A stretch of 64,000 nt of DNA. Source: Streptomyces sp. NBC_01478 (GTDB lineage Bacteria > Actinomycetota > Actinomycetes > Streptomycetales > Streptomycetaceae). A model generated the notes under the pieces. That model made no database searches and was not told the DNA's origin. It saw nothing but the letters and a program-made list of their open reading frames with translations. Shown piece after piece: positions 3,572 to 21,873 of the stretch (positions are counted from its first letter, which is position 1; the number at the start of each line of letters is the position of its first letter). Made by a program: the position numbers and the translations under genes. The stretch covers positions 12,009,501-12,073,500 of the forward strand of contig NZ_CP109444.1 of the NCBI RefSeq assembly GCF_036227225.1. Reading direction: 5' to 3'.

Positions 3572-3634
3572 CCGATAGTCGGTGAACGTGCGCATATATC
3601 GGTGGAGTCTGCGAGTCTTCGGTCTTCGTGTCAA
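3572..3634 (-). promoter_or_regulatory. Promoter with paired palindromic operator for the dioxygenase operon
   Basis: Read on the minus strand: TTGACA (3634-3629), 17-bp spacer, CAGACT (3611-3606), then two 11-bp motifs at 3592-3602 (CCGATATATGC, a half-palindrome) and 3572-3582 (CCGACTATCGG), 20 bp apart. The proximal motif shares 2 nt with the GGAGG ribosome-binding site. An operator downstream of the -10 box suggests repression by road-block. Confidence 0.7.
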
Positions 3635-3668
3635 CCCCTCGCGGGTCCCGCCGGTGCGCGGTCGCCGA

Positions 3669-3732
3669 TTGACAGCCGGGTGTCCCGGGGTTAGCTTGCT
3701 ACCGATTAACGGTTTAGTCGTTCGATTATCGA
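3669..3732 (+). promoter_or_regulatory. Promoter with paired palindromic operator for the hydrolase-enolase-MBL operon
   Basis: TTGACA (3669-3674), 17-bp spacer, TAGCTT (3692-3697), then CCGATTAACGG (3702-3712) and the perfect palindrome TCGATTATCGA (3722-3732), 20 bp apart, followed by GGGGA and the GTG start at 3745. The layout matches the divergent dioxygenase promoter. Confidence 0.7.
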
Positions 3733-3744
3733 CTGGGGACGCAA

Positions 3745-4881
3745 GTGCGCGAGTTGATGACCGTTCCCATGGGAACGGAAACCAAGGCCACCGAGATCTA
3801 CTCAGGTGTGGCACGGATGGCGGGTGTGCTGTGGTGTACCCGGGCGCGCGCCACACCGGGCAAGACTGCTTCGACTGCCGTCCTGGTCGTTCACCCGTCA
3901 TCCAACTTCTTGGGGCACTACGCCTTGGACGCCTGGGCGCGGCGTGGTGTCGATGCGATCGCGATGACTACCCGGTACATCGGGAACGACAGCTCCCTCC
4001 TGCTGGAGAACTGCCTGCTCGACGTCGCCGCAGTGGTTGCTCAGCTGCGGAGAGAGGGTTACGAGCGGGTTGTACTCGTGGGCAACTCCGGAGGCGGCGG
4101 ACTCGTCGCCCTGTACCAAGAACAGGCTGCGCGCGCCACCATCACCGCGTCCCCCGGCGGCAGCGGACCGGATCTGACCCAAGCCACGCTTCCCCCTGTC
4201 GATGCGCTGGTCACCTTGATGGCACATCCCGGCCGGGCGAATCTGCTGGTCGAGATGCTGGACCCGTCGATAGTGGATGAGAGCTCGCCGTTCGAGCGTG
4301 ACGCGGATCTCGACATGTTCGACAAGCGCAATGAGCCTCCGTACGACCGTGAGTGGCTGGCGCGATACCGCGAAGCACAACGGGCCCGCAACGAACGGCT
4401 CACCGACTATGCGCTGGATCAGATCGCACGCGTCCGCGAGCTGAGCGACGGCCGTGTCAACGACGTTCCGATGGTGGTGCACGCCACGTGTGCCGACCCG
4501 CGAAACGTCGACCTCACCATCGATCCCTCGGACCGCGAGGCCGGCACGCTCTGGGGCGACGCGGCTGTTGCCAACCTGATCCCCACCACTCTCGGCCACT
4601 TCACCTCCGCACAGTCGTGGCTGTCCCAGTGGTCGCTTCGAACGAGCAACGGCAACGGTCCGCAACGACTCGCGCGAACCGACGTGCCGGTACACGTCAT
4701 CTACGGAACCGCCGATCAAGCCTGCTTCCCTGAACACGCACGACAGCTCTTTGACGCTGTGCCGCACGGTCGCAAGAAGATCAGCGCCATCGCCGGAGGC
4801 AAGCACTACCTCAACGGGCAGGCCGAACTCACGGAAACCATGGCTGACGTCCTGGTCGGCTGGATCGAGGACACCCTGTGA
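3745..4881 (+). CDS. Alpha/beta-hydrolase
   Basis: A 378-residue hydrolase. The nucleophile elbow is GNSGGG in VVLVGNSGGGGLVALYQ (around residue 115), a late acid lies in YGTADQACFP, and the catalytic His is in GGKHYLNG near the C-terminus, so the Ser-Asp-His triad looks complete. GTG start at 3745 with GGGGA upstream; alternative internal ATGs exist. It overlaps the next gene by 4 nt (GTGA), so the three plus-strand genes form an operon. It sits divergent from the ring-cleavage dioxygenase and shares the same operator type, so ester or C-C hydrolysis of a ring-derived product is plausible but unproven. Confidence 0.75.
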   Translation: MRELMTVPMGTETKATEIYSGVARMAGVLWCTRARATPGKTASTAVLVVHPSSNFLGHYALDAWARRGVDAIAMTTRYIGNDSSLLLENCLLDVAAVVAQLRREGYERVVLVGNSGGGGLVALYQEQAARATITASPGGSGPDLTQATLPPVDALVTLMAHPGRANLLVEMLDPSIVDESSPFERDADLDMFDKRNEPPYDREWLARYREAQRARNERLTDYALDQIARVRELSDGRVNDVPMVVHATCADPRNVDLTIDPSDREAGTLWGDAAVANLIPTTLGHFTSAQSWLSQWSLRTSNGNGPQRLARTDVPVHVIYGTADQACFPEHARQLFDAVPHGRKKISAIAGGKHYLNGQAELTETMADVLVGWIEDTL

Positions 4882-5960
4882 GTCTGATCGGCACCATCGA
4901 GACCTCCTGGCACAAGATCCCCCTTGGCGGCGGCCGGGGAGGTTCGGGAGCGACCGAGGTCGATCTCATCCTGGTCACCGTCACCGACGACGACGGTGCC
5001 ACAGGACTTGGCTTCACCTTCGGGCTGACCGGAGGCGCCGGCGCTGTCAGGCATTTGATCGACAACGACCTGACCGCACTCGTATTGGGCACACCGCTCG
5101 ATCACTGGCCAGCCACCTGGGAAGCTGTCTGGTCGCGGACACACCGGCTGGGCAGGGGGCATGCTCTTCCGGCGCTGTCAGCTCTGGACCTGGCCATCCA
5201 TGATCTTGAGGCGAAGCGGCGTGGTCTGCCCCTTTACCGGCATCTTGGCGTACACGCCGACACCGTCGAGATCTACGGCAGCGGACGCGCCACCCACCAG
5301 ATGGACGTGGCTCAGCTCATCGAGGGCACGCAGCGCTATGTAGAGGAAGGACTGCGTGCCGTAAAGCTTCGGGCCGGAGCGCTCGGAGTCGAGGAGGACG
5401 TCGCCAGGATTGCCGCCGTGCGAGCGGCAGTGGGCGACGGTGTCCGGCTCATGGTCGACTGCAATGAGAGGCTCGACCTCCCCACTGCGCTCTGGTTCTC
5501 CCGGCGCCTCGCCGAACTCGATGTCTACTGGCTCGAAGAACCACTGCGCTCGGATGACATAGACGGCCACCGCCGGCTCGCTGAGCAGACCGGTCTGCCG
5601 ATAGCAGTCGGTGAGCACCTTCTTGGCCGCTTCGAGTTCGCCCAGTACCTCCAGCAGGGTGCCGCGACAATCCTCCAACCCGACCCACCGCTGTGCGGTG
5701 GCGTGACGGAATGGCGCCGGATCTCGGCGATCGCCGAGGCGGGATCGGCCTTCTTGTCGCCGCACTTCCTGCCCGAACTCAACATCCACCTCGCGGCATC
5801 GGTGCCCAACTGCCCATACGTAGAGCACTTCCCGCTCATCGACGACGTTCTCCTCGAAACGATCGAGATCCGGAACGGGCGAGCCGTTCCACCTGAACGT
5901 CCGGGACATGGGCTCCTGTTCGACCCGGACGCCCTCCACCGGTACGCCCACCTCAAGTGA
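4878..5960 (+). CDS. Mandelate racemase / muconate lactonizing enzyme-type enolase
   Basis: A 360-residue enolase-superfamily protein. Metal ligands are D194 (VDCNE), E220 (WLEEP) and E246 (VGEHL); H296 (LSPHFLPE) pairs with D269 (QPDP), one residue off mandelate racemase numbering. The second-strand base motif is K163-L-R165, where mandelate racemase has KxK, so the usual second Lys is Arg. Family members abstract the alpha proton of a carboxylate in racemisation, dehydration or cycloisomerisation; R165 makes a plain racemase less certain. GTG start overlapping the upstream hydrolase stop. Probably acts on a hydroxy- or unsaturated acid of the adjacent catabolic route. Confidence 0.85.
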   Translation: MSLIGTIETSWHKIPLGGGRGGSGATEVDLILVTVTDDDGATGLGFTFGLTGGAGAVRHLIDNDLTALVLGTPLDHWPATWEAVWSRTHRLGRGHALPALSALDLAIHDLEAKRRGLPLYRHLGVHADTVEIYGSGRATHQMDVAQLIEGTQRYVEEGLRAVKLRAGALGVEEDVARIAAVRAAVGDGVRLMVDCNERLDLPTALWFSRRLAELDVYWLEEPLRSDDIDGHRRLAEQTGLPIAVGEHLLGRFEFAQYLQQGAATILQPDPPLCGGVTEWRRISAIAEAGSAFLSPHFLPELNIHLAASVPNCPYVEHFPLIDDVLLETIEIRNGRAVPPERPGHGLLFDPDALHRYAHLK

Positions 5961-5989
5961 CACATAGGAAACCAGCGAAGGAGTCGCAC

Positions 5990-6946
5990 ATGTCGCAAGC
6001 ATTTGCTTCCTCGGGCGACACTGCCCCCAAGGTCGAGACGTTGGAGACCGTTGGCGACGGCATCTGGGCCCTCACCGCAGAAGGCGACCCGAACGTCGGC
6101 GCCATCGAGGGCGAGGACTTCCTCGTCGCGTTCGAGGCGCGTGCCACCCCGCTCATGGCACGGCGGTGGCTCGAGAAGCTGCGTGAGCACACGGACAAGC
6201 CGGTCAAGTACCTGGTGCTGTCCCATTATCACGCCGTGCGCGTGCTCGGGGCAGCGGCGTTCGACGCCGAGGAGATCGTGGCGTCCGCAGAGACCAAGCG
6301 GCTCATCGGCGAACGCGGGAAGGAGGACTGGGACGTCGAGTTCGGCCGTATGCCGCGGCTGTTCGACGGATATGAGGAGATCCCTGGGCTGACCTGGCCG
6401 ACCAAGACGTTCGACCAGCACCTCAGCATCGATCTCGGCGGCACCCGGGGCACCGTGGAGCTGTCCTGGTTCGGCAACGGCCACACCTCCGGCGACATTG
6501 CCGCCTACGTCCCGTCGCAGAAAGTCCTGTTTGCGGGCGACCTCGTAGAGAACGGATCCGCCGTCTACACCGGCGACGCCTACCACCAGGACTGGATGAC
6601 CGGAACCCTGGACAAGGTCGCGGAACTCGATGTCGAGGTGCTGGTCGGGGGCCGAGGGCACATCGCCCACACCAAGGACGAATCGCAGCGCGCGATCGAG
6701 CTCACCAGGGACTTCATCCGCCGAATGTTCACGGCCGTGGAGAAGGTGAAGAACGCCGGCAGCGACATCAAGGACGCTTACCTGGCGGCCCGTGCCGAAC
6801 TGCTGCCGGACTACGGTGGAATGCCTGTGTTCGAACACGCGATGGTCTTCGATGTCCAGCGTGTCTGGGACGAACTCGATGGCAAGCGCCCCGCCATTTG
6901 GACCGTCGAGCGGGATCACGAAGTCTGGGACCGCCTCACCAAGTGA
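5990..6946 (+). CDS. Metallo-beta-lactamase-fold protein with altered metal motif
   Basis: A 318-residue protein of MBL fold. The usual HxHxDH motif reads H79-Y-H81-A-V-R84, so the Asp and second His that hold the other metal are missing, while later ligands remain (GNGHTSGD, LFAGDLVENG, GGRGH). It may bind one metal or use a different centre. ATG 5990 was chosen because GAAGGAG lies 6 nt upstream; an upstream ATG at 5957 overlaps the enolase stop but lacks such a site. Third gene of the operon begun at 3745. Related proteins include thioesterase- and lactonase-like hydrolases; substrate unknown. Confidence 0.8.
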   Translation: MSQAFASSGDTAPKVETLETVGDGIWALTAEGDPNVGAIEGEDFLVAFEARATPLMARRWLEKLREHTDKPVKYLVLSHYHAVRVLGAAAFDAEEIVASAETKRLIGERGKEDWDVEFGRMPRLFDGYEEIPGLTWPTKTFDQHLSIDLGGTRGTVELSWFGNGHTSGDIAAYVPSQKVLFAGDLVENGSAVYTGDAYHQDWMTGTLDKVAELDVEVLVGGRGHIAHTKDESQRAIELTRDFIRRMFTAVEKVKNAGSDIKDAYLAARAELLPDYGGMPVFEHAMVFDVQRVWDELDGKRPAIWTVERDHEVWDRLTK

Positions 6947-6959
6947 TCACCGAGCTTCC

Positions 6960-7501
6960 TCAGCGTTGCCCCTCCACGGTGAGAACGGCTTTGGCGATCG
7001 GCGCTCGGCCGGGCAGGGCGGGTGAGAGCCGCAGCAGCCGGCCGCCCGGATCGGTGACCATCTGCACGTTCACCCGTGTCGACGGTGCTTGACGCCCCTC
7101 TGTTCCTCAAGCTGTGATCATCAGGAGCGCTGAAGTGTCAGGCTGCTGGTGGCGCGGGGGAGTAGTCGGCCCCTCCGTCGCTGACCCGGTGGCACTGGGC
7201 GAGCATGCCGCTCAGCAGGACGAAGTCCGCGTCGGCCTCGCACAGGACCTTCAGCAGACCCGGCGCACGTTCGGCGAGCAGGTGATGACCGCGCTGGTGT
7301 AGGCGTGGGCGGTGGACTCGCTGATCCCGAACCCGGCAGCGATCTTCGTTAGGATGGCGTGTTCGCACAGGTACATCAGCGTCACCACCGCGCGCTGAGA
7401 CGGACGGACGGGTGACGACGAGCATGGCGACCCACTCCATGAGCGCATGGGGCAGGTCGAGTACGGCAGGACGGATGACCAACGAGGCCCCCGAACAGCA
7501 T
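6960..7501 (-). pseudogene. Broken IS5-family transposase
   Basis: Reading the minus strand, transposase-like segments occur in successive different frames: an N-terminal piece starting at the ATG at 7501, the helix-turn-helix region VVTLMYLCEH...IAAGFGISESTAHAYTSAV, then HLLAERAPGLLKVL, and finally VNVQMVTDPGGRLLRLSPALPGRA near 7000-7070. At least two frameshifts and a truncated C-terminus make it non-functional. An 11-bp inverted repeat (7483-7493 and 7534-7544, CGAGGCCCCCG) brackets its start and may be part of the old element end. Different from the intact element at 24226. Confidence 0.7.
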
Positions 7502-7688
7502 GGTTGAGACGTCAGACATCTCGACCAACAGCCCGGGGGCCTCGCTCGTTGCGCTTCGTGGACCGTCACCTGACCGGTGGCCAGCTCGAAGAAGCTCAGT
7601 CACGGAGCAGTGCTCCCGGCCGACGGCGGCTGCATCGCCTCCTGAGCTGCGCCAGCTCAGCCGCCAGGGCGGGCAGGTCCTCACAAAT

Positions 7689-7745
7689 TGGAGTTGACGC
7701 TCCATAAATGCCGTGACAGGATCCCAGAATGGAGTGAATACTTCA
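7689..7745 (+). promoter_or_regulatory. Promoter with two TGGAGT-N4-ACTCCA-type operators
   Basis: TTGACG (7694-7699), exact 17-bp spacer and CAGGAT (7717-7722) form a strong Streptomyces-type promoter for the peroxiredoxin gene at 7815. Two 16-bp inverted repeats, TGGAGTTGACGCTCCA (7689-7704) over the -35 box and TGGAGTGAATACTTCA (7730-7745) near the start point, lie 41 bp apart, about four helical turns. This looks like a repressor-controlled promoter (TetR-type site geometry). Confidence 0.65.
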
Positions 7746-7814
7746 TTATCGGGTTCCTTTGCTTCGCGCCGGGCCCGCACACCCCCTCACTCCGCTGATA
7801 CGAAAGGTCCCCTT

Positions 7815-8480
7815 GTGAACAGCACCCAGACGATCGCCGAGCAGGTCGTGACGTTCAAGGAGCACCTGGCCTCCCAGGCGCCCGCCGTGGTTCTGGGTCG
7901 TTTTGACGAGGAGCAGGCCGGTCTCGACCGGGCCGGCATCCCCTCCGGAGTAGCCCAGCCCGGGGCGGTCATGCCCGACGGCGATCTGCTCGACGCGCAC
8001 GGTGCTCCGACCAGCCTGGCCAAGGCCCGTGATGGCAAGCCGGCCGTCGTCGTCTTCTACCGCGGCGCATGGTGCCCCTACTGCAACATCGCCCTGCGCG
8101 CTTACCAGGAGCAGGTGGTCCCGGCCCTGAACACGCGCGGCGTTGTACTCATCGCGGTCAGCCCTCAGAAGCCGGACGGCTCACTGTCCGTCAGGGAGAC
8201 GAATGAACTGACCTTCCCGGTGCTGTCCGACCCGGGCAACCAGCTCGCCACCCCGCTCGGCATCCTCACCCACCCCACCGACGGCGCCCGTGAGTCCCAG
8301 GCCGCACTCGGCCTCGATGTGGCCGACGGCAACGGCGACGGCACTCCCAACCTTCCGATGCCCACGACCGTCCTGGTCGACGCCGCCGGCACGATCCGCT
8401 GGATCGACGTCCACCCCAACTACACCTCCCGCACCGAGCCGCAGTCGATCCTCGACGCCGTCGCGTCGCTGCTCGCCTGA
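7815..8480 (+). CDS. AhpC/TSA-type peroxiredoxin-like protein, copy 1
   Basis: A 221-residue thioredoxin-fold protein with C87 and C90 in YRGAWCPYCN, a CPYC variant of the peroxiredoxin site, and the C-terminal strand pattern TTVLVDAAGTIRWIDVHPNYTSR. Likely a thiol peroxidase or disulfide reductase of the cytoplasm. GTG 7815 was chosen because GAAAGG lies 7 nt upstream; a longer frame reaches into the promoter. Related to the protein at 18969 but controlled by a different kind of operator. Monocistronic. Confidence 0.82.
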   Translation: MNSTQTIAEQVVTFKEHLASQAPAVVLGRFDEEQAGLDRAGIPSGVAQPGAVMPDGDLLDAHGAPTSLAKARDGKPAVVVFYRGAWCPYCNIALRAYQEQVVPALNTRGVVLIAVSPQKPDGSLSVRETNELTFPVLSDPGNQLATPLGILTHPTDGARESQAALGLDVADGNGDGTPNLPMPTTVLVDAAGTIRWIDVHPNYTSRTEPQSILDAVASLLA

Positions 8481-8585
8481 CACCCGTACACGCGGGGACC
8501 GGGCATCCCTCCTTCTTCTCAGGAGCGGACGCAGCCATCCGTCTACTTTGCCTCGCCAATGCAGGCCCGGCAGTCTCACCAAGAG

Positions 8586-9611
8586 TCAGGAATGCCCAGG
8601 CCAAAGCTCCAGGGCGGGCAGACGCAGCACCACATCGGGCGGGCCGGTGAAAGCGCGCGGATCATCCGGCGCCAAGCCGGCCACGTCGCAGCAGTACGCG
8701 ATCGCGTTGTGCAGGTAAAGGCAGGATCGCAGGATCTCATCGCTTGGATCATCGGATGCGGCCTGACCGCCTCCCGGGCGGAGGTCCCAGTCCAACTCGA
8801 CGCCGTCGCGGAATCTGCTGCCTTGATTACCGCTCTTCGGGTTGGCGTACATACCGTATCCCGCGGTGCCGGCGGTGAGCAGCGCCATCACACCCGGGGC
8901 GGAGGCGGTGTATCCGGCCCATTGCGTGACCACACAGCCGCCCGGAACGTCGGTGACGCCCACGGTGTCCGTGACTTCGTCCTCGGTCATGCCCGCCTCC
9001 CACGGGTCCATCAGCCATTCGTCGAAGTTGTCGATCCTCACGGGTTGGCCTTGGAGTCGGTGGGCCGCCTCGGCGCAGCTGATGCCGGCGACACAAGCGA
9101 TGCTCATCCCGTCGAGGGCCACATCGGCCAGGACGTCGATGAGGCGACCGGCGCGCAATACGGTTGCCTGTTCCTGCTCACTGAGGCCCACCGTCGACGG
9201 GGCTGGCCCGAACAGGTCGGGTTCCGGACCCGCCAGATTGAGTCGGCCGGGCGACCAGCCGTTCATCTGCGGCCGCCACGGGTCCGCGCCGGCAGAGACC
9301 AACCTCAGGGCCATCTCGCGCTCGCGGTACATCACCGCCTCGAACAACGGCGTACGCCCGTACCACAATGCGTCGATGTCGACCGCAGCTCGGATCAGTT
9401 CTTCGAACACGTTCATCGGCATCCCGAAACTGGCCGCCTCATGCAGTTCGCCCTCGTTCACATGCCGAGTATGGCCGGTATAGCCTTCCGGCGACCTCAC
9501 CTGTTTGCGTGGTGTAGCCGTCGGCGGTGACGTGGTGTGATCTCGAAGATGGCGCCCGGGCAGGGGCGACTCCAACGGCGCTTCAACCGTTGCGTTTGAG
9601 TCTTGAGTCAC
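8586..9611 (-). CDS. Ankyrin-repeat domain protein of unknown role
   Basis: A 341-residue protein. Residues about 50-120 form ankyrin-like repeats (GELHEAASFGMP, then GRTPLFEAVMYREREMALRLVSAGADPWRP). The centre (ATVLRAGRLIDVLADVALDGMSIACVAGISCAEAAHRL) resembles the sigma/DNA-region-4-like or DUF6461-type parts seen in Streptomyces ankyrin proteins, and the C-terminal third (CVVTQWAGYTASAPGVMALLTAG) is hydrophobic but without a clear transmembrane run. Such proteins probably mediate protein contacts; no enzyme motif is visible. The start could be later (MNVFEELIRAA), since the first 45 residues are low-complexity. Confidence 0.65.
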   Translation of the reverse strand: MTQDSNATVEAPLESPLPGRHLRDHTTSPPTATPRKQVRSPEGYTGHTRHVNEGELHEAASFGMPMNVFEELIRAAVDIDALWYGRTPLFEAVMYREREMALRLVSAGADPWRPQMNGWSPGRLNLAGPEPDLFGPAPSTVGLSEQEQATVLRAGRLIDVLADVALDGMSIACVAGISCAEAAHRLQGQPVRIDNFDEWLMDPWEAGMTEDEVTDTVGVTDVPGGCVVTQWAGYTASAPGVMALLTAGTAGYGMYANPKSGNQGSRFRDGVELDWDLRPGGGQAASDDPSDEILRSCLYLHNAIAYCCDVAGLAPDDPRAFTGPPDVVLRLPALELWPGHS

Positions 9612-9698
9612 AGGTCAAGCGCTGGTGCGTGACGCAATGGGACGTCCTGATAGATCAGCTTGCGTCGAGGAAGAAGATCATCGGGAGTCCCGTTGCAG

Positions 9699-9797
9699 GA
9701 GAAGTCCGTCATCACGCGCACGGTCGAGGCGGCCGGGGGTGTGCACGCCCCCGGCCACTTGGGCGAGTTGACCCAGATCGTTGACTCCGGGTCGACC
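9699..9797 (+). pseudogene. N-terminal scrap of an IS4-family transposase
   Basis: About 33 codons read KSVITRTVEAAGGVHAPGHL followed by GELTQIV, the typical N-terminal start of actinobacterial IS4-type transposases (APGHLGELT). The remainder of the transposase is absent. Confidence 0.55.
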
Positions 9798-9799
9798 CG

Positions 9800-10093
9800 A
9801 TGGCCAACATGCTGCCCTTCCGCAACCCGCGGCCGCACCTGCGTCGGCATCGCGCGCGGCTTCCAGAAGCGTTGGCTGAGATCATGGGCCAGGCGTACGG
9901 AGTTGGTGGAACCGTCTCCGACGCAAGCGACAATGACCTGCGCAACCGCCTGATCTTCGAAGAGCACTGGCAGACCCTCAAGAAGGCGCAGACGACCGAG
10001 GCCTTCTCGCACTCCGGTACCCAACGGACGATTCCGGTGAAGGACCTGGAGTTCGCCTACCCCGAACTGGCTCTGACAGGCGCGAGTTACTGA
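9800..10093 (+). CDS. Uncharacterised 97-residue ORF, possibly a gene remnant
   Basis: Begins ATG at 9800 in the middle of IS debris and ends RTIPVKDLEFAYPELALTGASY. The C-terminal 60 residues (NDLRNRLIFEEHWQTLKKAQ) look like real protein, whereas the Arg-rich start looks like frame read-through. I do not recognise a family. It may be the tail of a gene truncated by the transposon fragment next to it. Confidence 0.3.
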   Translation: MANMLPFRNPRPHLRRHRARLPEALAEIMGQAYGVGGTVSDASDNDLRNRLIFEEHWQTLKKAQTTEAFSHSGTQRTIPVKDLEFAYPELALTGASY

Positions 10094-10235
10094 CCTTGGC
10101 GTTGGAGTGGGTACCCAGGGTCAAGGGCCGGCCTGAGAGATCCCCGGCAACGCCCCGGTGCGGTCCTCGACCTGCTCAACGTGGAGGGGGCTGCAGCCGG
10201 TCTGCGGCGAGTGCGCGTGCCCTGCGTCCGCGTGT

Positions 10236-11408: not shown

Positions 11409-11539
11409 GGAGGCCAGGGCCTTTCATGTTTGAGGAGGGGCGGATTTCCCGGAGTTGGGGGGAGGGTTGGCTGCTGCTGTGCAGGAGCCCCCTTACGGGA
11501 ATCGGCGCGGCGGATCGCCATCGGCCGTGCAGGGCGAAC

Positions 11540-12799
11540 TCAGTTGGGGTTGCGGACATTGGTGAGGGTTTCCCAGGCCACGAAGAGGTTGTTCGTGCCG
11601 GCCGGGCGGTTTCGCTCGGTGAGAGTCTGGGTGTTGGCCATCGCGACGCCGTGGAGGGTGTTCAGTGTGTTGAAGCCGACCTCGGTGATGGGGCCGAGTC
11701 CGAGTTTGAGAGTGCCGCCGCACACGGTGGACGGGATGGCCGCGCCGAGTTCGTACTTCGACTGGAAGCCCAGTGCCTGCCGTAGCCGTTCACCGACCTG
11801 CGGATAGAGGTCCTGCCCCTGGATGCGGGCGGTCTCCAGGACGTGGGAGATCGAGGAGATGCCGTAGCCGGTGTGGGTGAGGTCGCGGCAGGTTTCCTGG
11901 GTGATGCCGGTGGTGAAGGTGCTTGCGCCGAACCAGAAGCTGACGATCTGGTCGCGAGTGGTGAGGTGCTGGCTGGGCACGGTCTTGGGCAGCGCGCCGT
12001 CCGAGGAGAGGTACACGAAGGCGGGGACGCGCTGCAGGTAGTGGCCGATCGCGGTGTCGTAACTGGTGTGGTCGTCGAGGAAGACAGAAATGCTGACGGC
12101 CGCCTCCAGCATCGTCAGGTCCCAGTTGCCGGTGCGGTTGGAGCCGTTGACGACCAGCGGGAGGTAGACGGTGCGCAGCATCGTCGCGAAGCGGCCGGCG
12201 TTGGGCCAGTTACCGCGCACGGTCTTGATGATTTCGGCTGCCTTGGGCCAGGAGGAGCCCGTCCAGCCGGTCTGCAGTGGGGCGTTGTCGTTGGTGTGGT
12301 TATGGATGGTCGCGGACCAGGCGTCCATGAGCTGGATCGCCTTCTGTGCGTAGCGGTCGTCGCGGTTGATGTACCAGGCCAGCGCGTCGGTGTACGCGGC
12401 TATCGCGTCCTCGCGTTCGTCGGTACAGCCGTTGTTGGGATTCGAGGAGGGGCCGCACTCCACGGTCGCCCGGGGTTTGGGGCTGCGTGACAGCGAGGCG
12501 TAGGAGCTGGCCATCATGCTGTCGTACGCGGTCTTCCACGGCTGGGCCCCCGCCTGGACCTTGGCCCGTACGAAGTCGAGCTGGGCGGAGTCAAGGTTCA
12601 CGCCCGGGTGCACGAACGCCGCGGGCGATGCGGCAACGGCTGCGGCTTTAACGGTGCCGGGCTGAACGGTTGTGGCCCGCGTGGCGGCTTCCGGCGTGGG
12701 TGCCGGGGAAGCCGAGGCGGGAGCTATGACGGCTGCGGCCGCCACAGCGCCGAGCACGGCGGACAGGCAGGCGAACCGGGAGAGGGCTGTTAGGCGCAT
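11540..12799 (-). CDS. Secreted alginate-lyase-family polysaccharide lyase
   Basis: About 419 residues starting MRLTALSRFACLSAVLG, a Sec signal peptide with Ala-rich cleavage zone near residue 32. The mature part has the alpha/alpha toroid motifs of the alginate_lyase family: PGVNLDSAQLDFVRAKV, AAYTDALAWYINRDDRYAQKA, NRTGNWDLTMLEAAVSISVF and QETCRDLTHTGYGISSISH (His and Tyr candidates for the catalytic pair). ATG 12799 was preferred over one 18 bases upstream because it starts exactly at the signal peptide. Together with the GH88/105 protein downstream it makes a small extracellular uronate-polysaccharide degradation pair. Confidence 0.82.
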   Translation of the reverse strand: MRLTALSRFACLSAVLGAVAAAAVIAPASASPAPTPEAATRATTVQPGTVKAAAVAASPAAFVHPGVNLDSAQLDFVRAKVQAGAQPWKTAYDSMMASSYASLSRSPKPRATVECGPSSNPNNGCTDEREDAIAAYTDALAWYINRDDRYAQKAIQLMDAWSATIHNHTNDNAPLQTGWTGSSWPKAAEIIKTVRGNWPNAGRFATMLRTVYLPLVVNGSNRTGNWDLTMLEAAVSISVFLDDHTSYDTAIGHYLQRVPAFVYLSSDGALPKTVPSQHLTTRDQIVSFWFGASTFTTGITQETCRDLTHTGYGISSISHVLETARIQGQDLYPQVGERLRQALGFQSKYELGAAIPSTVCGGTLKLGLGPITEVGFNTLNTLHGVAMANTQTLTERNRPAGTNNLFVAWETLTNVRNPN

Positions 12800-12965
12800 G
12801 GGGGGATGGCCTTCCATGAGGCGACTGCCGCTACGGAATTCCTATACGTGAACACTGAATGCGATGGTGAACCGTCGATGCCGGAAGGTAGTCGCGCGGG
12901 GACGAGGGCGTCAAGGTCTAGACCAACATTGCGGGGAGCCCGCGGCTGCACCATCACGCGTCCCG

Positions 12966-13033
12966 CGTAGTCCAGGACGCCAGGGCACTACGCGCACCAC
13001 GTAGTCCGGGACGCCAGGGCACTACGTGCGCCG
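12966..13033 (+). repeat. Two tandem 34-bp repeats
   Basis: Units at 12966-12999 and 13000-13033 begin CGTAGTCCRGGACGCCAGGG and differ at few positions. Each unit contains CGTAGT and ACTACG near its ends, so each can fold back. Two copies only; not a CRISPR array. Confidence 0.7.
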
Positions 13034-13246
13034 CGGGCGTTATCGAGGGCCATGCCGACAACGCCGACCGCCCCCAGAACTCGACCTGCGTCAACGCCGG
13101 CAACACCATCGGTGACAACCTGATCTTCAACATCATGCAGGCGCTCGTCGACGGCGGGGCGATCAGCATGGAAGGGCCACCAGGCGCAGTACGTACACCA
13201 GGCCGACGGCACGATCGACGCTGCGGCTGCGCTCGCCAACGGCCCT
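13034..13246 (+). pseudogene. Fragment of a beta-helix gene copied from the 34776 gene family
   Basis: The DNA here matches, with scattered differences and a small frameshift, the segment at about 36328-36540 inside the large secreted beta-helix gene (shared phrases encode NLIFNVMQ-, DDGGAIYMEGHQAQY- and QADGTIDA-like residues). It has no start and no remaining gene around it, so it is a decayed duplication directly behind the tandem repeats. Confidence 0.75.
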
Positions 13247-13283
13247 GGTACTGGCACCGCGCGGGCGGGCGGCCTGAGCGTGA

Positions 13284-13952
13284 TCAGGCAGGCACGAGGA
13301 AGGACTCGACGTGGTCCAGCATCGTGTCCAGCCCCGCCTCAAGCGCCGCGGTGTCGCGACGGATTTGGGTGAGCAGCAGGCCGCCCTGAAGCGTGGTCAG
13401 CAGCGCCAGCCCCAGTCGCTCCGGGTCGGCGTCGGCACGCAGTTCACCACGATCCTGCATGGCCCGCAGGCCATCCACGACGGACTTTTCCCACAGCGCG
13501 AACCCGGCCGCGACCTCCTTGCGGGCATCAGGGTCCGTTTCAGCCAGCTGACTGCCGAGAGTCCCGATGGGACAGCCTCCGACGTAGTCCAGCGAGCGCT
13601 CCAGGTCGACAGCGAAATCCCGCCAGGCCCGCAGCGCCTCCATGCTGTCGAGGCGGCTGTACCGAGGCCGGGCGGCCCCGAATCTGCCGAGCACCTGCGC
13701 TGTATGGACGGCGATGACTGCCTTTACCAGGGACTTCTTGTCCTTGAAGTAGTGGTAGATCTGCGAAGGGTTCACCTCCGCGGCTTCCTGTACGTCCTCG
13801 ATGCTGGTGCCGGCTACGCCGCGCTCGAACATCAGGACCGCCGCAGCAGCCGCGATCCGGTCGCGCGTTGCCTGACCCTTGCGCGTTAGGCGCGGGACAG
13901 CGGTACCGACCTCATCAGTGTGCACGTCACGAGGGTAAGCATTTTGGAGCAA
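13284..13952 (-). CDS. TetR-family transcriptional regulator
   Basis: About 222 residues. N-terminal helix-turn-helix: RDRIAAAAAVLMFERGVAGTS, IEDVQEAAEVNPSQIYHYFKDKKSLVKAV. The C-terminal half (GCPIGTLGSQLAETDPDARKEV...LLTTLQGGLLLTQIRRD) is of the AcrR/TetR_C type where a Cys in GCPIG is often conserved in regulators of reactive-compound responses. The start is uncertain: TTG 13952 has AGGAG 10 nt upstream; a GTG ten codons later is possible. Upstream (13934-13958) AAGCATT occurs twice, flanked by GTAA and TTAC, a possible own operator. Its target is unknown; the SDR gene downstream is convergently oriented in the operon sense only by strand, with 200 bases between. Confidence 0.8.
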   Translation of the reverse strand: MLQNAYPRDVHTDEVGTAVPRLTRKGQATRDRIAAAAAVLMFERGVAGTSIEDVQEAAEVNPSQIYHYFKDKKSLVKAVIAVHTAQVLGRFGAARPRYSRLDSMEALRAWRDFAVDLERSLDYVGGCPIGTLGSQLAETDPDARKEVAAGFALWEKSVVDGLRAMQDRGELRADADPERLGLALLTTLQGGLLLTQIRRDTAALEAGLDTMLDHVESFLVPA

Positions 13953-14156
13953 GCATTACAAACTCCTGACGAGACGCCCGATCGTCCGCGGTGTCTCGAT
14001 TTCCGGCGGTCGGGCAGTTCATCTGGCGCGAAGGGGTCACCCCTCACGACGACGCTTCCGTGGCGAGTGTCCGCAGTCGGCATGACCGGTACGTCCGGTG
14101 CCTCATGCCGTGCCCCAGTCTGCCGGTCTCACGAGCGTGGCACCTCAATTGCGTTG

Positions 14157-14912
14157 TCACCGCAGTTCGAGTCCGCCGTCGATGGTGATCACCTGGCCGG
14201 TGACCCAACTCGAACCTGGTGATGTCAACTGCACGATCCAGCCGGCGATTTCTTGGGCCTCTCCCCGGCGTCCCAACGGAATGTTTGTCCGTTGCTGAGC
14301 TTTGACAGTTTCCGCCTCGTCGTGTGACAGACCTGAGGCTGTCAAGACTTCGCTCTCCGTGGGGCCGGGGGCTACGGCGTTCACTCGGATTCCGTGTGGC
14401 GCCAGCTCCAGCGCCCACGTCCTCGTCAGGTGCTCAAGTGCACTCTTCGCGGCGCCGTAATGTGCCGAGCCTGGGCTGGGGCGGTGACCGAACGTGCTGG
14501 AGACATTGACGACGCAGCCGCGTGTCTCGCGCAGCCACGGCAATGCCGCCTGGGTAAGGAGTGTCGGAGCGACGACATGAATCGCAAAGAGTTCGTCTAC
14601 CTGTTCGGCGAGTACGGTGTCGAGGCCGGCGCGGATCGTACCGCCCGCGTTGTTGACCACAATGTCCACGCGCCCCCATAGGTCCACAGCCTTCCGCACA
14701 ACCGCACCCGGAGCCTCGCGGTCTCGCAGATCCGCGGCGAACGGTTCGACGCCGCGGGCCAGTTCCGTGGTCCGTTGCAGCGCTTCGGCTCGACGCCCGA
14801 CGCCAAGGATCCGCACGCCCTGATCAGCGAGGGCGATGGCTGTGGCACGTCCGATGCCGGAGCCCGCTCCGGTCACGATGGCCACAGGATGTTCCGTAGC
14901 AATCGAGTTCAT
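14157..14912 (-). CDS. Short-chain dehydrogenase/reductase (SDR)
   Basis: A 251-residue classical SDR: TGAGSGIG cofactor motif at 15-22, NNAGG at ~89, SSTF then Y-x3-K (HYGAAKSALEH) active site, and the C-terminal GPTES...VTGQVITIDGG. GRR after strand 2 suggests NADP(H) preference. ATG 14912 with GGGGAG a few bases upstream. Last gene of the minus-strand operon hydroxylase-OsmC-SDR; likely oxidises or reduces an alcohol/ketone in the aromatic route. It is distinct from but similar to the SDR at 44276, which also partners a FAD monooxygenase. Confidence 0.88.
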   Translation of the reverse strand: MNSIATEHPVAIVTGAGSGIGRATAIALADQGVRILGVGRRAEALQRTTELARGVEPFAADLRDREAPGAVVRKAVDLWGRVDIVVNNAGGTIRAGLDTVLAEQVDELFAIHVVAPTLLTQAALPWLRETRGCVVNVSSTFGHRPSPGSAHYGAAKSALEHLTRTWALELAPHGIRVNAVAPGPTESEVLTASGLSHDEAETVKAQQRTNIPLGRRGEAQEIAGWIVQLTSPGSSWVTGQVITIDGGLELR

Positions 14913-14933
14913 GCGTGCTCCCCGTGTGGTGCC

Positions 14934-15413
14934 TTAGGTGAAGACGAGTTCACTGGTGATTTCGATCGCCGAGCCGATGCTCGACGCGACAGGACAGTGC
15001 CGGTGGTGGCGCTCATGGGCGCGTTCGACTTTCTCGACCTCGATATTGCTGTCGCGCCGGAGTCGGTACGTCACGTGAATGCTGCGGATGCGGAGCACCC
15101 CGCGTTCCTTGACGATGACTCCCTCGGCTCGTGCCTCCAGCCTGCCGTTGTGAGTGTCCTGGCCCAACGCGAGCAGCATCCCTGAGAAGGTCCCGGTCAG
15201 GCAGCCGGCGGCCGCCCCGATCAGATAGTCGAGCGTCGTCGCATGCGGAGTCAGCTCGCTGTCGGGAATCTTGTAGTGCTCGGCGATCTCGTCACGCATG
15301 CCCATGGGGACTTCGCCGTCGACCGGCATCGTCACCAGCTTCGTTCGCCCGGGACTGGGCCGAACGGTGAATGTGGGACGTTGAACGATTTGCTCTTCCG
15401 CCGTCTGTGTCAT
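14934..15413 (-). CDS. OsmC/Ohr-family protein
   Basis: A 159-residue protein beginning MTQTAEEQIVQRP. The OsmC fold is recognised from TTLDYLIGAAAGCLTGTFSGML (first peroxidatic Cys position, in GAAAGCLTG) and the second conserved Cys in HRHCPVASSIG, which together form the thiol peroxidase pair. The ATG shares one base with the stop of the hydroxylase gene (TGATG), so translation is coupled. In this operon it may clear peroxide made by uncoupled turnover of the FAD hydroxylase; this is inference. Confidence 0.85.
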   Translation of the reverse strand: MTQTAEEQIVQRPTFTVRPSPGRTKLVTMPVDGEVPMGMRDEIAEHYKIPDSELTPHATTLDYLIGAAAGCLTGTFSGMLLALGQDTHNGRLEARAEGVIVKERGVLRIRSIHVTYRLRRDSNIEVEKVERAHERHHRHCPVASSIGSAIEITSELVFT

Positions 15414-17041
15414 CAGGTCCTCGCTTCCATCTCGGGCTCGCGCGCCAGGGCCTGCTGCCAGGCGGCACGGATGCGGTCCATCCAGGATTCGTCGGACGAC
15501 CCGGCCTCGATTTCCCGCACAGCGGCCAGGTAGCAATCGGGGCGGACCAGATAGGCGGCGTCGCTCGGGTGGTGCAACGGATGCGGTGTGCTGCTTCCCT
15601 CGACCTGGAGCGTGAACAGCTGGACCACCCCTGACTCGTCAACCGAGTAACACCTCAGCGTGCCGGGGGAGGCGGCCTCTGTCCGGATCACGGTGAAGCG
15701 GCCGGCGGCGATCTTGCGGACCGTCGTGGGGACACCGTCATGGATCAGCCGGAAGTCCGGGATCATGGAACCCGGGCGTGGCAGCCGAGCCGTGGGGAGA
15801 CACTCGGACGGAGTCGTCAGCGGCGACTGCGTGTAGGCATGCGGTTCGTAGAGCTTGCCGGAGTCGACCAGGTGCGCTTTCGCCGGATCATTGGCCGCCT
15901 GAGCGAGGGTTTTGTTTCGTTCGGCCAGCTCTTCCGGAGTCGAGGGCGTCATGAAGTTCATGGACTGGCCCGTGACGAGCACATGGTGAGCGGCGGCGGA
16001 CTCGCGTTCCGTGGCATACGTGTCGAGGAGCCTGTCCGGCGCAGTGCCGGCCAGTACCCCGGCCAGCTTCCAGGCGAGGTTCTCGGCGTCCTCCATGCCG
16101 GAGTTCATCCCTCGGGCGCCGAACGGCGACACGACATGTGCGGCGTCACCGACGAGGAAGACCCTGCCCTGTCGAAACCTGGAGGCCTGCCGCTGCTGGA
16201 AGGTCCAGCCGTTGCAACGAAGGATCTCGATCTCGACCTCGTCGACCTGCGCGTGATCAAGGACAGCTCGAATACGCCTGGTCACGCCGCCAGAGGTGAG
16301 TTCTTTCTCGACGTCGAGCTCTGGCGGAATCTGCCAGTCCAGCCGCCAGACGTCCTCGCCGAGGCTGTGCATCAGCACGATGCCCTCTGGATAGAACGGT
16401 GGGGAGAACCACAGCCGCCGTTCCGTGGGGAAAGGAAGCTGTGCTCGAAAGTCCGCGACGAGGAAACGGCCGTTCGTCCGCCAGCCGTGGAAGTCGATCC
16501 CGAGCGTCTTGCGCGTCGGGCTGCCCACGCCGTCCGCCGCAACGACGTACGACGCGTTGAGCACGCGTGTGTGTCCCGAGCCGTCGACAACGCGGACCAC
16601 GGCGTGATCGGCGCCCGCTCCGTCGTGGACGACTTCGGCGGACGCCCCGTGGAGGATGCGAACGCCCTCCTGCCGCGCGACGGCATCGTGCAGCAGTTCC
16701 TCGACCCGGTACTGGGCGAAGTTGATGAAGGGCGGATAGACGCTGGAGGCGTCCCTGTCGAAAGTGAGCCGGAGGATCTCCTCGTCGCCGTAGTAGGTCC
16801 GGCCGAGGGACCAGCTGCTTCCGCGTTCGAGGATCTCCTCGGCGATCCCCATCCGGTCGTAGAGAGCGATGATGTCGCGCTGGATAGTGACAGCACGTGA
16901 CTGTCCGCAGCTCGGCGTTTCCCTCCGCTCCACGACGACGCAGCGCACGCCCGCGCGTGACAGTAGGAGTGAAGTCGCAATCCCGATGGGGCCCCCGCCG
17001 ATGATGATGACCGGAAGCGCGACAGCCTTGTCGAGAGCCAT
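15413..17041 (-). CDS. FAD-dependent aromatic hydroxylase (PheA/MhpA-type)
   Basis: A 542-residue group A flavoprotein monooxygenase: GGGPIG FAD motif at 15-20, VVAADGVGSPTRK (the DG motif), and LVGDAAHVVSPFGARGMNSGMEDAENLAWKL (GD motif). The extra C-terminal thioredoxin-like domain (from about residue 410) is typical of phenol hydroxylase and 3-(3-hydroxyphenyl)propionate hydroxylase relatives. It would hydroxylate a phenolic ring with NAD(P)H and O2, giving the diphenol that a ring-cleaving dioxygenase uses. ATG 17041 with GGAG 6 nt upstream. First gene of an operon with OsmC and SDR; divergent from the IclR gene at 17223 and preceded by the paired palindromes. Confidence 0.88.
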   Translation of the reverse strand: MALDKAVALPVIIIGGGPIGIATSLLLSRAGVRCVVVERRETPSCGQSRAVTIQRDIIALYDRMGIAEEILERGSSWSLGRTYYGDEEILRLTFDRDASSVYPPFINFAQYRVEELLHDAVARQEGVRILHGASAEVVHDGAGADHAVVRVVDGSGHTRVLNASYVVAADGVGSPTRKTLGIDFHGWRTNGRFLVADFRAQLPFPTERRLWFSPPFYPEGIVLMHSLGEDVWRLDWQIPPELDVEKELTSGGVTRRIRAVLDHAQVDEVEIEILRCNGWTFQQRQASRFRQGRVFLVGDAAHVVSPFGARGMNSGMEDAENLAWKLAGVLAGTAPDRLLDTYATERESAAAHHVLVTGQSMNFMTPSTPEELAERNKTLAQAANDPAKAHLVDSGKLYEPHAYTQSPLTTPSECLPTARLPRPGSMIPDFRLIHDGVPTTVRKIAAGRFTVIRTEAASPGTLRCYSVDESGVVQLFTLQVEGSSTPHPLHHPSDAAYLVRPDCYLAAVREIEAGSSDESWMDRIRAAWQQALAREPEMEART

Positions 17042-17049
17042 TATGATCT

Positions 17050-17111
17050 CCGATAATCGGTTGCCTCGATCGTATATTGAGCATTAGCGCTCGCTGGTGG
17101 CTGGTTGTCAA
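17050..17111 (-). promoter_or_regulatory. Promoter with paired palindromic operator for the hydroxylase operon
   Basis: On the minus strand: TTGACA (17111-17106), 17-bp spacer, GCTAAT (17088-17083), then a degenerate motif at 17070-17080 (TCAATATACGA) and the perfect palindrome CCGATTATCGG at 17050-17060, 20 bp apart. The proximal motif shares 2 nt with the GGAG ribosome-binding site. Same layout as at 3572, 3669 and 18898. Confidence 0.7.
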
Positions 17112-17222
17112 CCCGTCGGACGTGGCACCCCACATACCGGGCTGGAAGGAAGCTGCTGGTAAAACAGGACTGTCGTCCGCTCACGCGGCGGCGTCGAATA
17201 GGGGAAACCAGAGGAGGCGACC

Positions 17223-17915
17223 GTGGCTCAGGACGCAAAGGTGCCGACCGAGATCGCACAGACTCTCGACCGCGGCCTGCAGGTCCTCGAGTTCTTGGGC
17301 TCGTCGGTGAATGGGTTCACGGCCACCGAAGTGGCGCAGCAAATCGGTGTGCATCGCTCGATCGCCGCGCGACTGCTGGCCACATTGGCCAACCGCAAGT
17401 TCGCCACCCGGCTCGCGGATGGGCGCTACGTCATCGGGACAGGGCTGTTCAGCCTGGCCCGGATGGTCGCGCGCGATCTGGTTTCGGTTGCGACGCCCAT
17501 GCTCCGCGATGCAACGGAGCGAGTCGTCGCCACCTCGGTACTCCACGTCGCGGACGGCGATGAGGTGGTGACCGTGCTCTCCATCGAACCGCCCTCGGCG
17601 AACTTCCGCGTCGGGATGCGCGTAGGCGCCCGAGGCCCACTCGACCTGGCGGCCCACGGGATCGCGATCCTTGCCGGCCGCCCATCGATGCTCGGCGAGC
17701 GACCAGAGGTCGCCCAGGCCCGGGAACGCGGCTACGCCGCCACCACGGGAGAAGTCGTACCCGGCTACACCGGGTTGTCTGCGCCTGTCTACGTCGGTGG
17801 CGAAGCAACGGCCAGTGTCGGCCTGGTGATTCCCGCATCCAGAGGCGTCGAGGTGCCAGAACTCGCGGTCGAGGTAGTCAAACTGGCCCAGGCGCTCTCG
17901 GTGGCCAACGGATAG
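17223..17915 (+). CDS. IclR-family transcriptional regulator 1
   Basis: A 230-residue protein: N-terminal winged helix (QTLDRGLQVLEFLGSS...ATEVAQQIGVHRSIAARLLATLANRKF) followed by the IclR effector domain (RVGARGPLDLAAHGIAILAGRP, then SAPVYVGGEATASVGLVIPA). GTG 17223 with GAGGAGG upstream. It is divergent from the aromatic hydroxylase operon, whose promoter contains palindromes shared with three other catabolic/redox promoters in this window, making it the best candidate for the common regulator. IclR proteins usually bind short palindromes as dimers or pairs of dimers, which fits two 11-bp sites 20 bp apart. Effector unknown, probably an aromatic acid. Confidence 0.88.
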   Translation: MAQDAKVPTEIAQTLDRGLQVLEFLGSSVNGFTATEVAQQIGVHRSIAARLLATLANRKFATRLADGRYVIGTGLFSLARMVARDLVSVATPMLRDATERVVATSVLHVADGDEVVTVLSIEPPSANFRVGMRVGARGPLDLAAHGIAILAGRPSMLGERPEVAQARERGYAATTGEVVPGYTGLSAPVYVGGEATASVGLVIPASRGVEVPELAVEVVKLAQALSVANG

Positions 17916-18110
17916 TGACGCCCCGGGGTGCAGGCAGCCGGCCAGGTGCGTCTTGAGAAGTGGTGTTCGGACTCTTACCCGATGCGGGCCTTTGCCCTGG
18001 TGTCAGGACGAGCGGCCGGATGCGAGAGCGGCATCCGGTTGATCTCTGAGATGTCGAAGGCGCCGAGGAGACCAGCACGACGACCGGGCCAGACGGCTTC
18101 CCCTGCACGC

Positions 18111-18249
18111 CCTAGCCGTGGGAAACCTTGCCGCGGCGGGCCCCGATCTGTTGCGCGCGATGGTCAAAACAATCACCGACGCGCTCATGCCTACCGAGGC
18201 CAGCGCCGCTGCAAAGCGGATACGACCGGGCTGGCGTCTGCCTAACTAG
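18111..18249 (+). pseudogene. N-terminal remnant of an IS256-family transposase
   Basis: The frame reads AAAGPDLLRAMVKTITDALMPTEASAA, matching the N-terminus of Streptomyces IS256-type (mutator) transposases, and then leaves homology. About 40 codons survive. Confidence 0.6.
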
Positions 18250-18700
18250 CTGCACCTGGCCCGATGTGTCGTCGACGACGGCTGACGTCTGCGGCGAGCT
18301 GCGGAACGCTTCCAGGTCAGCCACGCCACCGCCTTACGCTGGCCGGACGCTTCCGACGCTACGGTCCAGCGGGGATACGCGACCGCGTCAGCCGCCTGAG
18401 ATGCCAGCCCCGCCGCACCCCGGCCGCTGTCGAGAAACAGGTTGTACGCCTGCGGCTCGCCCACCACATTCTGCGCCGCCACGGCCTGCCTGCCCTGGCC
18501 ACGCTGAACAGGGCCGCCGGCGAACCTGCACGCCGCTGCGAACGCTCCCGGCCCGGTGAACTGGTCCGCATAGACGTCAAGAAGCTGGGCCGCATCCCCG
18601 ACGGCCGCGGCCACAAAACTCTCGGCCGCGCAGCCGGCCGAGCCCACCAGGACCGCTGCATCGGCAGCGGATGCGCTACCTGCACACCGCCATGACACCA
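18250..18700 (+). pseudogene. Remnant of an IS481-family transposase
   Basis: Segments RLRRAAERFQVSHATA, then in another frame GRFRRYGPAGIRDRVSR, TPAAVEKQVVRLRL, LRRHGLPALATLNRAAGEPARR and PGELVRIDVKKLGRIPDGRGH are typical of IS481 transposases. There is an in-frame stop near 18283, a frameshift near 18345, an internal deletion of roughly 20-25 codons between RLRL and LRRHG, and the catalytic core after the first Asp is missing. Non-functional. Confidence 0.75.
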
Positions 18701-18897
18701 GGACCTCGATCGTCCCTTTCGCGTACCGCCGCGCCGTCGCCTCGGGCGCTTGGAGCCTGGCTGAACGTCTCGGCCGGCGCGTGTGCGCAAGAGCCAGGAG
18801 AGCCCACTCGGATGCGGCACCAACCTCGCCCCTCAGGGTGCCGGTGTGCCAGGCACGCGGTGGCTGTTCGAGGGCGTGGGCGGGTGCCTCATCAGGC

Positions 18898-18956
18898 TTG
18901 ACATGACCGACACGCCGTGGCATCTTCGGTTATCGGTTATGGTCATCGTTTATCGG
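18898..18956 (+). promoter_or_regulatory. Promoter with paired palindrome-like motifs for peroxiredoxin 2
   Basis: TTGACA (18898-18903), 17-bp spacer, CATCTT (18921-18926), then TCGGTTATCGG (18926-18936) and TCGTTTATCGG (18946-18956), again 20 bp apart, followed by AGGAG and ATG 18969. The right halves TTATCGG match the motifs at the three other promoters; the left halves are less symmetric. Confidence 0.6.
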
Positions 18957-19652: not shown

Positions 19653-20042
19653 ATCCCTTCGGTACAGGGCCGACAACTAGGCTGTCCTCCATTCGCCGAC
19701 CTGATCGGTCTGTTTCGAACGGTCGTGTTGGATGGGGCGAGTTGGCTGGTGCGAAGGCATGCAGAAGGGGTCTCTGGGCGGCATGCGGGTTCTGCTGGGT
19801 GTTCGCAGTGAATGAAGCAGTCACGTCAGGCCAGGACAAGGCCATTGCGCTTCTATGGGTGAACGGCCTGTTCGCCAGAGAGACTTGCACGATGGTCTGA
19901 CCCTGTTCACGGGGGCAGTCACCGGCAGCGGATGCGCGTCCCGGACAGATACCCAGGTTGTCGCGCCTCTTGGCCCAGGCATGAGCTACACGTGCAGGAT
20001 CCGGGGACCAGTTCCGTTGGCCATGCCCGGAGGGGGCGAAAT
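19653..20042. other. Non-coding stretch ahead of the nitrilase fragment
   Basis: About 390 bases with no recognisable gene on either strand; probably old insertion debris. It leads directly into DNA matching the 3' end of the nitrilase gene. Confidence 0.4.
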
Positions 20043-21870: not shown

Positions 21871-21873
21871 CCC

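Follow-up and report, generated by a model that had tools for sequence, protein, structure and literature searches.

A probable tandem operator and its putative IclR-family regulator in a predicted aromatic-catabolism and peroxide-defence gene cluster of Streptomyces sp. NBC_01478

Which protein reads a pair of short palindromes that recurs, at a constant distance, in front of a ring-cleavage dioxygenase gene, a hydrolase operon, an aromatic hydroxylase gene and a peroxiredoxin gene of Streptomyces sp. NBC_01478? The palindromes lie in a stretch of 64,000 nucleotides (nt) of NZ_CP109444.1 (12,009,501-12,073,500, within a single contig of 12,124,816 bases), hereafter the window, to whose numbering all positions refer. 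The pairs are real and exceed chance. We consider it likely, from comparisons of sequence, that they are operators of the local IclR-family protein encoded at 17223, acting as a tetramer-type repressor of the four promoters.

Paired palindromes at four promoters

Each of the four promoters carries two palindromes of 11 base pairs (bp), and within every pair the two start positions are 20 bp apart. Following transcription, the order is a TTGACA hexamer, 17 bp, a poor -10 hexamer, the distal palindrome (box 1), 9 bp, the proximal palindrome (box 2), and the start codon.

3572..3582, reverse strand: dioxygenase proximal box CCGACTATCGG, its end overlapping the Shine-Dalgarno sequence GGAGG
3592..3602, reverse strand: dioxygenase distal box CCGATATATGC, degenerate (7.2 bits)
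3629..3634, reverse strand: dioxygenase -35 hexamer TTGACA; 17 bp, then CAGACT at 3606-3611
3669..3674, forward strand: hydrolase -35 hexamer TTGACA; 17 bp, then TAGCTT at 3692-3697
3702..3712, forward strand: hydrolase distal box CCGATTAACGG
3722..3732, forward strand: hydrolase proximal box TCGATTATCGA
17050..17060, reverse strand: hydroxylase proximal box CCGATTATCGG, overlapping the Shine-Dalgarno sequence
17070..17080, reverse strand: hydroxylase distal box TCAATATACGA
17106..17111, reverse strand: hydroxylase -35 hexamer TTGACA; 17 bp, then GCTAAT at 17083-17088
18898..18903, forward strand: peroxiredoxin -35 hexamer TTGACA; 17 bp, then CATCTT at 18921-18926
18926..18936, forward strand: peroxiredoxin distal box TCGGTTATCGG
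18946..18956, forward strand: peroxiredoxin proximal box TCGTTTATCGG

An exact TTGACA precedes every pair, with its first base 28-33 bp ahead of box 1, and box 1 itself begins on the final -10 base or as much as 4-5 bp beyond it; all four -10 hexamers are poor matches to TATAAT. The hydroxylase pair also stands 143-173 bp ahead of the IclR gene, which is read divergently. An initial annotation of this DNA had described the eight boxes and their 20-bp spacing, both of which are borne out, and had correctly noted that the proximal box runs into the Shine-Dalgarno sequence in two promoters, those of the dioxygenase and the hydroxylase. Other parts of that description need amending. The promoter formula TTGACA-17 bp-(C/T/G)AnnnT holds in its -35 half at all four sites, but the hydroxylase hexamer GCTAAT does not fit the second half. 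The proximal consensus CCGAYTATCGG describes the dioxygenase and hydroxylase boxes but not those of the hydrolase and the peroxiredoxin, and the distal box, said to be degenerate, is so in two promoters only, whereas the hydrolase and peroxiredoxin distal boxes score well.

To examine the distance independently of these sites, we used the published 9-position core CGATWATCG. At 20 bp, five pairs in the window reach at least 14 of 18 core positions (each box at least 6), namely the four reported pairs and a weak pair at 1495, while 200 Markov simulations at this distance gave a mean of 0.25 and a maximum of 2. At thresholds of at least 14, 15, and 16 positions, the counts at 20 bp are 5, 3, and 2, respectively, compared with at most 3, at most 2, and none at any other distance from 11 to 100. 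Similarly, single boxes matching YCGATWATCGR with at most one mismatch occur nine times in the window against 1.66 expected, a number that 0 of 100 shuffles reach, and six of the nine are boxes of the operator pairs.

Recurrence in the genome and in Amycolatopsis jejuensis

The initial annotation had called for a genome scan with a position matrix, in which many matches outside promoters would speak against a regulon; none appeared among the candidates scored. The profile used here, R1, was built from sequence only, on nine pairs (four of the window, five of A. jejuensis), so that recovering these pairs is no test, while the absence of others is. The scoring covered the best 150 of 929 candidates from a first look at the 12.1-Mb genome, so that weak further sites could be missed. 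At an expectation value (E) of at most 10, all eight matches among them are the four pairs in two copies each, and none lies off the cluster. A profile was used because the plain pattern YCGATWATCGR-N9-YCGATWATCGR, allowed three mismatches, finds only three of the four pairs (six places, each pair twice); the dioxygenase pair exceeds three mismatches. The reversed pattern, run as a control in the same genome at up to three mismatches, had no match, nor did an exact consensus pair with a variable gap, which is too strict.

The double occurrence has a simple source. Bases 94,001-115,309 of the contig repeat window 1-21,309 without a difference, in reverse complement, with the second copies of the pairs at 96-112 kb from the other chromosome end, and the cluster is thus located in a long terminal inverted repeat. 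Every gene in window 1-21309 is accordingly present twice.

Beyond this genome, the pattern with up to two mismatches was matched, among 394 genomes of the family, in the NBC_01478 genome (two of four pairs, both copies) and at one place each in genomes G240 and G246; the reversed control was matched in one genome. None of 20 query proteins is matched at 1e-15 in the stretches fetched around the G240 and G246 places, the G240 place lying ~175 bp from a contig end with one side unseen, and without a cluster gene beside them both pairs are taken as chance occurrences and not as regulon members. Profile R1, run over six genomes or records at E up to 10, matched only the NBC_01478 and A. jejuensis genomes, the latter at five cluster pairs and one place elsewhere (E 1.86); the pairs of G001, RHA1, G240, and G246 were not recovered.

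The genes involved are as follows.

1404..2429, reverse strand: thioredoxin reductase, downstream of the dioxygenase (TIGR01292, 374.3 bits, cut-off 343.45)
2365..3561, reverse strand: HmgA-like cupin ring-cleavage dioxygenase, 398 amino acids
3745..4881, forward strand: alpha/beta hydrolase
4878..5960, forward strand: enolase-superfamily (MR/MLE) enzyme
5957..6946, forward strand: metallo-beta-lactamase-fold (MBL) hydrolase
14157..14912, reverse strand: SDR oxidoreductase, a candidate regulon member by operon position only
14934..15536, reverse strand: OsmC-like protein, a candidate regulon member by operon position only
15413..17041, reverse strand: FAD-dependent aromatic hydroxylase
17223..17915, forward strand: IclR-family regulator, 230 amino acids (Pfam HTH_IclR and IclR_C), proposed repressor of four operons
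18969..19652, forward strand: AhpC/TSA-type peroxiredoxin (Prx2)

A search of genome contigs found one locus with a close relative of the 17223 protein (86% identity), in A. jejuensis. Its proteins are 77% (thioredoxin reductase), 89% (dioxygenase), 85% (hydrolase), 84% (enolase), 81% (MBL), 72% (hydroxylase), 86% (IclR), and 81% (Prx2) identical to those of the window. This cluster is a compact version in which four pairs stand at the equivalent promoters at the same 20-bp distance, and a fifth precedes a gene for an MFS transporter (L007 11612-11642). Between the two species, the boxes are identical at 84 of 88 positions (box 1, 40/44; box 2, 44/44), compared with 16 of 36 in the spacers. 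Against the metabolite/H+ symporter family, the transporter reaches 442 bits, slightly short of the cut-off of 443.45; it has no match in the window at 1e-15, and its best match elsewhere in the NBC_01478 genome is 47% identical.

The OsmC, SDR, TetR, AraC, and second IclR proteins of the window have no match in the 20.7-kb A. jejuensis stretch at 1e-15, and the first peroxiredoxin of the window matches it only at Prx2 (1e-15). The window cluster is also interrupted: glycosidase and other genes separate the MBL and hydroxylase operons, and the gap between the IclR gene and the Prx2 operator is ~1 kb in the window versus ~70 bp in A. jejuensis. This ~1 kb (17916-18900) holds no convincing gene, its open reading frame (ORF) at 18264-18695 being without a Pfam match, and is possibly a decayed insertion. 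A single shared regulon, as the initial annotation had it, is well supported by the conservation in A. jejuensis and by genome matches confined to the cluster. Its hydroxylase-OsmC-SDR operon fares unevenly, in that the hydroxylase finds its counterpart, but OsmC and SDR would belong by position alone.

The candidate regulator and its rivals

The 17223 protein combines the N-terminal HTH_IclR and C-terminal IclR_C domains that characterize the IclR family, matching PF09339 with 43.6 bits (cut-off 22) and PF01614 with 44.8 bits (cut-off 24; profile positions 6-75 of 174). The operator layout is typical of this family. The initial annotation had taken it for one new to the literature, which is wrong: the main text of Suvorova and Gelfand 2021 (PMC8222616) describes tandem palindromes with 18-22 nt between centres for 94 orthologous IclR groups, read as tetramer sites, and names aromatic metabolism as the most frequent target of IclR control. 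The window system shares with these regulators its two palindromes and a centre distance within that range, exactly 20 in 4/4 window and 5/5 A. jejuensis pairs. Compared by eye with the IclR group 1 consensus of that text, GKTYCRYW3-4RYGRAMC (core YCRYW3RYGR), the window consensus CCGATWATCGG agrees at 9 of 11 core positions, with A and T at the Y/R positions; no outer GKT/AMC arms were seen next to the boxes. Table 1 of the same paper gives motifs containing CGATWATCG for PcaR and PcaU and CCGATSATCGG for PobR, so that PcaR of P. putida and PcaU and PobR of A. baylyi have the box core in common with the window; PcaU has a third box (PMC8222616), whereas the window operators consist of two full palindromes 20 bp apart. 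The window system differs from all three in its gene set and outer arms, and its protein falls below the subfamily threshold (TIGR02431, PcaR/PcaU/PobR: 66.2 bits, cut-off 284.75).

TtgV, another member of the family and sequence-related to the window protein, controls solvent efflux, a target unlike that of the window regulon. Its PDB entries are 2xrn and 2xro, and PMC8222616 cites a tetramer-operator structure. HmgR-type control, in which an IclR protein governs homogentisate genes, resembles the window system, but the HmgR motif in the same main text, ATTACGTTATTCGTAAT (PMC8222616), differs from the window boxes, and the window dioxygenase is HmgA-like rather than HmgA. Finally, NdgR of Streptomyces coelicolor is, in the text of PMC4340878, an actinomycete IclR regulator with a role in thiol oxidative stress, a likeness to the window system, while its 15-bp motif has another sequence (PMC4340878).

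At 1e-45, a search of 394 genomes of the class for the 17223 protein returned only the NBC_01478 genome, and at 1e-40, homologues were found in 4 of 394 genomes of its family (itself included) and, counting A. jejuensis, in 11 of 390 from the family of that species. The stretches scanned for pairs came from ten other genomes of the A. jejuensis family, three others of the Streptomyces family, and seven plasmid loci (L015-L017, L019-L022). The whole arrangement is retained in two genomes whose IclR protein is 55-58% identical. In G1014, pairs precede both the hydroxylase and a dioxygenase-Prx2-hydrolase operon; in G765, they precede an MFS gene and, in weaker form, the hydroxylase. Across the 13 promoters of these two genomes, NBC_01478, and A. 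jejuensis, the first base of TTGACA is always 28-34 bp ahead of box 1; G001, G1071, and the RHA1 plasmid have pairs without this hexamer. Eighteen upstream regions (17 loci) of IclR homologues lie outside the set from which the matrix was made. Eleven of them have a core pair at 20 bp (at least 13 of 18 positions), compared with at most six at any other distance from 11 to 60 and with a simulated mean of 0.345 (maximum 2 in 200 runs). Additional 20-bp pairs downstream of the IclR homologue gene in two loci of other actinobacteria (L060 9447-9477 and L062 10896-10926) suggest further operons in those versions of the regulon.

The boxes vary with the predicted recognition helix. With one hand-picked box per locus, the helix HRSI(A/V)ARL accompanies CCGATTATCGG, HRSI(A/T)YR accompanies TCTATWATCGA, ARAVVYRL accompanies (T/C)CGATTACCGT, and HRTVxYRL accompanies GCTATATTCGC or GCTATAATCGC. 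That box variants mostly track helix variants is suggestive, though both also follow kinship. The proposal of the initial annotation that the adjacent IclR protein is the regulator is well supported by these comparisons, namely the A. jejuensis cluster with its pairs, the pairs upstream of further homologues, and a genome search with no match off the cluster, and we regard this assignment as very likely.

In the mechanism that we propose, every 11-bp palindrome would be bound by a dimer; the two dimers of a pair, lying two turns (20 bp) apart on one helix face, would cooperate as a tetramer. Box 1 would cover the transcription start point, and box 2, 20 bp further, would reach the Shine-Dalgarno sequence. 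The unliganded 17223 protein would thereby block RNA polymerase at the four TTGACA promoters until an aromatic substrate or intermediate releases it. Release would co-induce ring hydroxylation, HmgA-like cleavage together with the thioredoxin reductase, the hydrolase-enolase-MBL steps, and the peroxiredoxin, and the induced peroxiredoxin system would remove peroxide arising from hydroquinone chemistry.

Several observations weigh against this picture. Repression is deduced from site position alone, and activation too is within the reach of PcaR-type IclR proteins. One box, the distal one of the dioxygenase, is weak. Seven of the 18 homologue regions have no pair at the threshold, and among the 11 that do, the L055 pair is weak (13/18), while L060-L062 and L064 share nearly the same boxes and helix, so that not all are independent cases. 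In G001 and on the RHA1 plasmid, the diverged pairs rank first of ~20,000 positions by a locus-restricted matrix, yet their promoters lack TTGACA and R1 does not recover them at E up to 10. At L022, the helix HRSIATRL is almost that of the window protein, yet no pair lies upstream. This exception and the restriction of the profile search to the best 150 of 929 candidates are why our confidence in tetramer-type repression by the 17223 protein stops at likely.

The most serious competitor, although an unlikely one, is that the 17223 protein is an activator or dual regulator, as PcaU and PcaR are. The poor -10 hexamers would suit activation, but in 13 of 13 TTGACA promoters box 1 starts at the last -10 base or downstream (assuming 17 bp between hexamers), and a protein bound there blocks polymerase and does not recruit it. 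That the pairs bind another protein, with the IclR protein a mere neighbour, appears improbable. A TetR (13284), an AraC (23246), and a second IclR protein (29108) are encoded in the same window, L022 has a similar helix without a pair, and binding by the 17223 protein is itself a prediction; a regulator coded elsewhere might serve as well. However, in a comparison confined to regulators ahead of window position 30000, the 17223 protein is the only one of these four regulators present in the A. jejuensis stretch that carries all the pairs. Moreover, such pairs are found again ahead of IclR homologue genes from other lineages, with boxes that vary with the recognition helix, and the box core is that of the IclR proteins PcaR and PcaU in the main text of PMC8222616.

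Two further explanations fare worse. Box 2 falls within the predicted 5' leader and, in two promoters, abuts the Shine-Dalgarno sequence, and folding of the hydrolase leader is a little better than that of the majority of shuffles (10/200 as good), which might point to an RNA hairpin controlling translation. We rejected this reading, now very improbable, on folding z-scores of -0.40, -1.62, -0.40, and +0.61 for the four leaders and the lack of a common structure; a hairpin also leaves box 1 at the start point and the fixed 20-bp distance unexplained. Chance repeats in promoter DNA, for which the weak dioxygenase distal box might be cited, are scarcely credible in the face of the simulations, shuffles, genome-wide searches, and cross-genome conservation.

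Putative pathway, peroxide defence and neighbouring genes

The dioxygenase scores 31.1 bits for Pfam HgmA_N (cut-off 20.2) and only 46 bits for TIGR01015 (HmgA; cut-off 510.75). It may keep its iron ligands: an alignment with 3zds, read by eye, pairs H, E, and H in the expected stretches, using the His/Glu/His positions that we take to be the ligands of a homogentisate-type dioxygenase. The succession of a flavin hydroxylase and an HmgA-like dioxygenase suggests a hydroquinone that is formed by para-hydroxylation and then cleaved in its ring. Several of the nearest plasmid relatives of the dioxygenase, in Rhodococcus, adjoin a related alpha/beta hydrolase, whereas Pseudonocardia and Streptomyces plasmid relatives have a fumarylacetoacetase nearby and not the hydrolase; the alpha/beta hydrolase may replace fumarylacetoacetase in the putative pathway. 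This scheme, like any substrate and any part played by the enolase and MBL proteins, is inference. Not all relatives carry pairs. The Rhodococcus plasmid loci L015, L016, and L019 (dioxygenase and hydrolase at 50-58%) have none above the threshold, and at N. gerenzanensis L017 a lone box, CCGATAGTCGG, precedes the dioxygenase match by 35 bp and another adjoins the IclR start, neither with a good partner at 20 bp.

The link to peroxide defence drawn by the initial annotation is supported. Prx2 is placed in the regulon because it has its own operator in both species and because, in G1014, it stands between dioxygenase and hydrolase behind one pair. The thioredoxin reductase is included because it lies behind the dioxygenase in two species and because the RHA1 plasmid carries one (61%) ~1 kb from its IclR homologue. 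Together, they would remove the peroxide of hydroquinone autoxidation or uncoupled hydroxylation.

Searches of open-licence papers on this regulon, its relatives, and its operator listed no title that describes it; the sections of PMC8222616 consulted do not name it, although it could be among the 181 groups of the supplementary lists. The regulon content seems new, as it places a ring hydroxylase, an HmgA-like dioxygenase, hydrolase-enolase-MBL enzymes, a peroxiredoxin, and a thioredoxin reductase under one local IclR protein. We give even odds to the boldest reading, that of a self-contained, horizontally moving actinobacterial regulon in which an IclR tetramer covers the start point and the first ~30 transcribed bases, and a new HmgA-like pathway brings its own thioredoxin reductase-peroxiredoxin couple, with peroxide defence induced by an aromatic compound rather than by oxidative stress. 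For an aromatic pathway that is as yet uncharacterised, the cluster supplies a regulator, an operator, and a regulon that can be tested, and it is a clear instance of sequence placing a peroxiredoxin under an aromatic-catabolism operator. Its operators help to delimit the pathway genes, as with the transporter added by the fifth operator of A. jejuensis, and so aid in finding the substrate, and the operator-regulator pair could become a biosensor part.

Farther along the window, 20482-24217 encodes an indoleacetamide-hydrolase-like amidase, a MetX-like hydrolase, and a FeaR-like AraC regulator, possibly forming, with the nitrilase gene at 25194, a separate nitrile/amide degradation set. Partial copies of this nitrilase gene (25194-26267) occur at 19990-20277 and 39523-39690 (78% and 89% at the protein level, respectively) and look like signs of local duplication near a DDE transposase gene (24235-25041).

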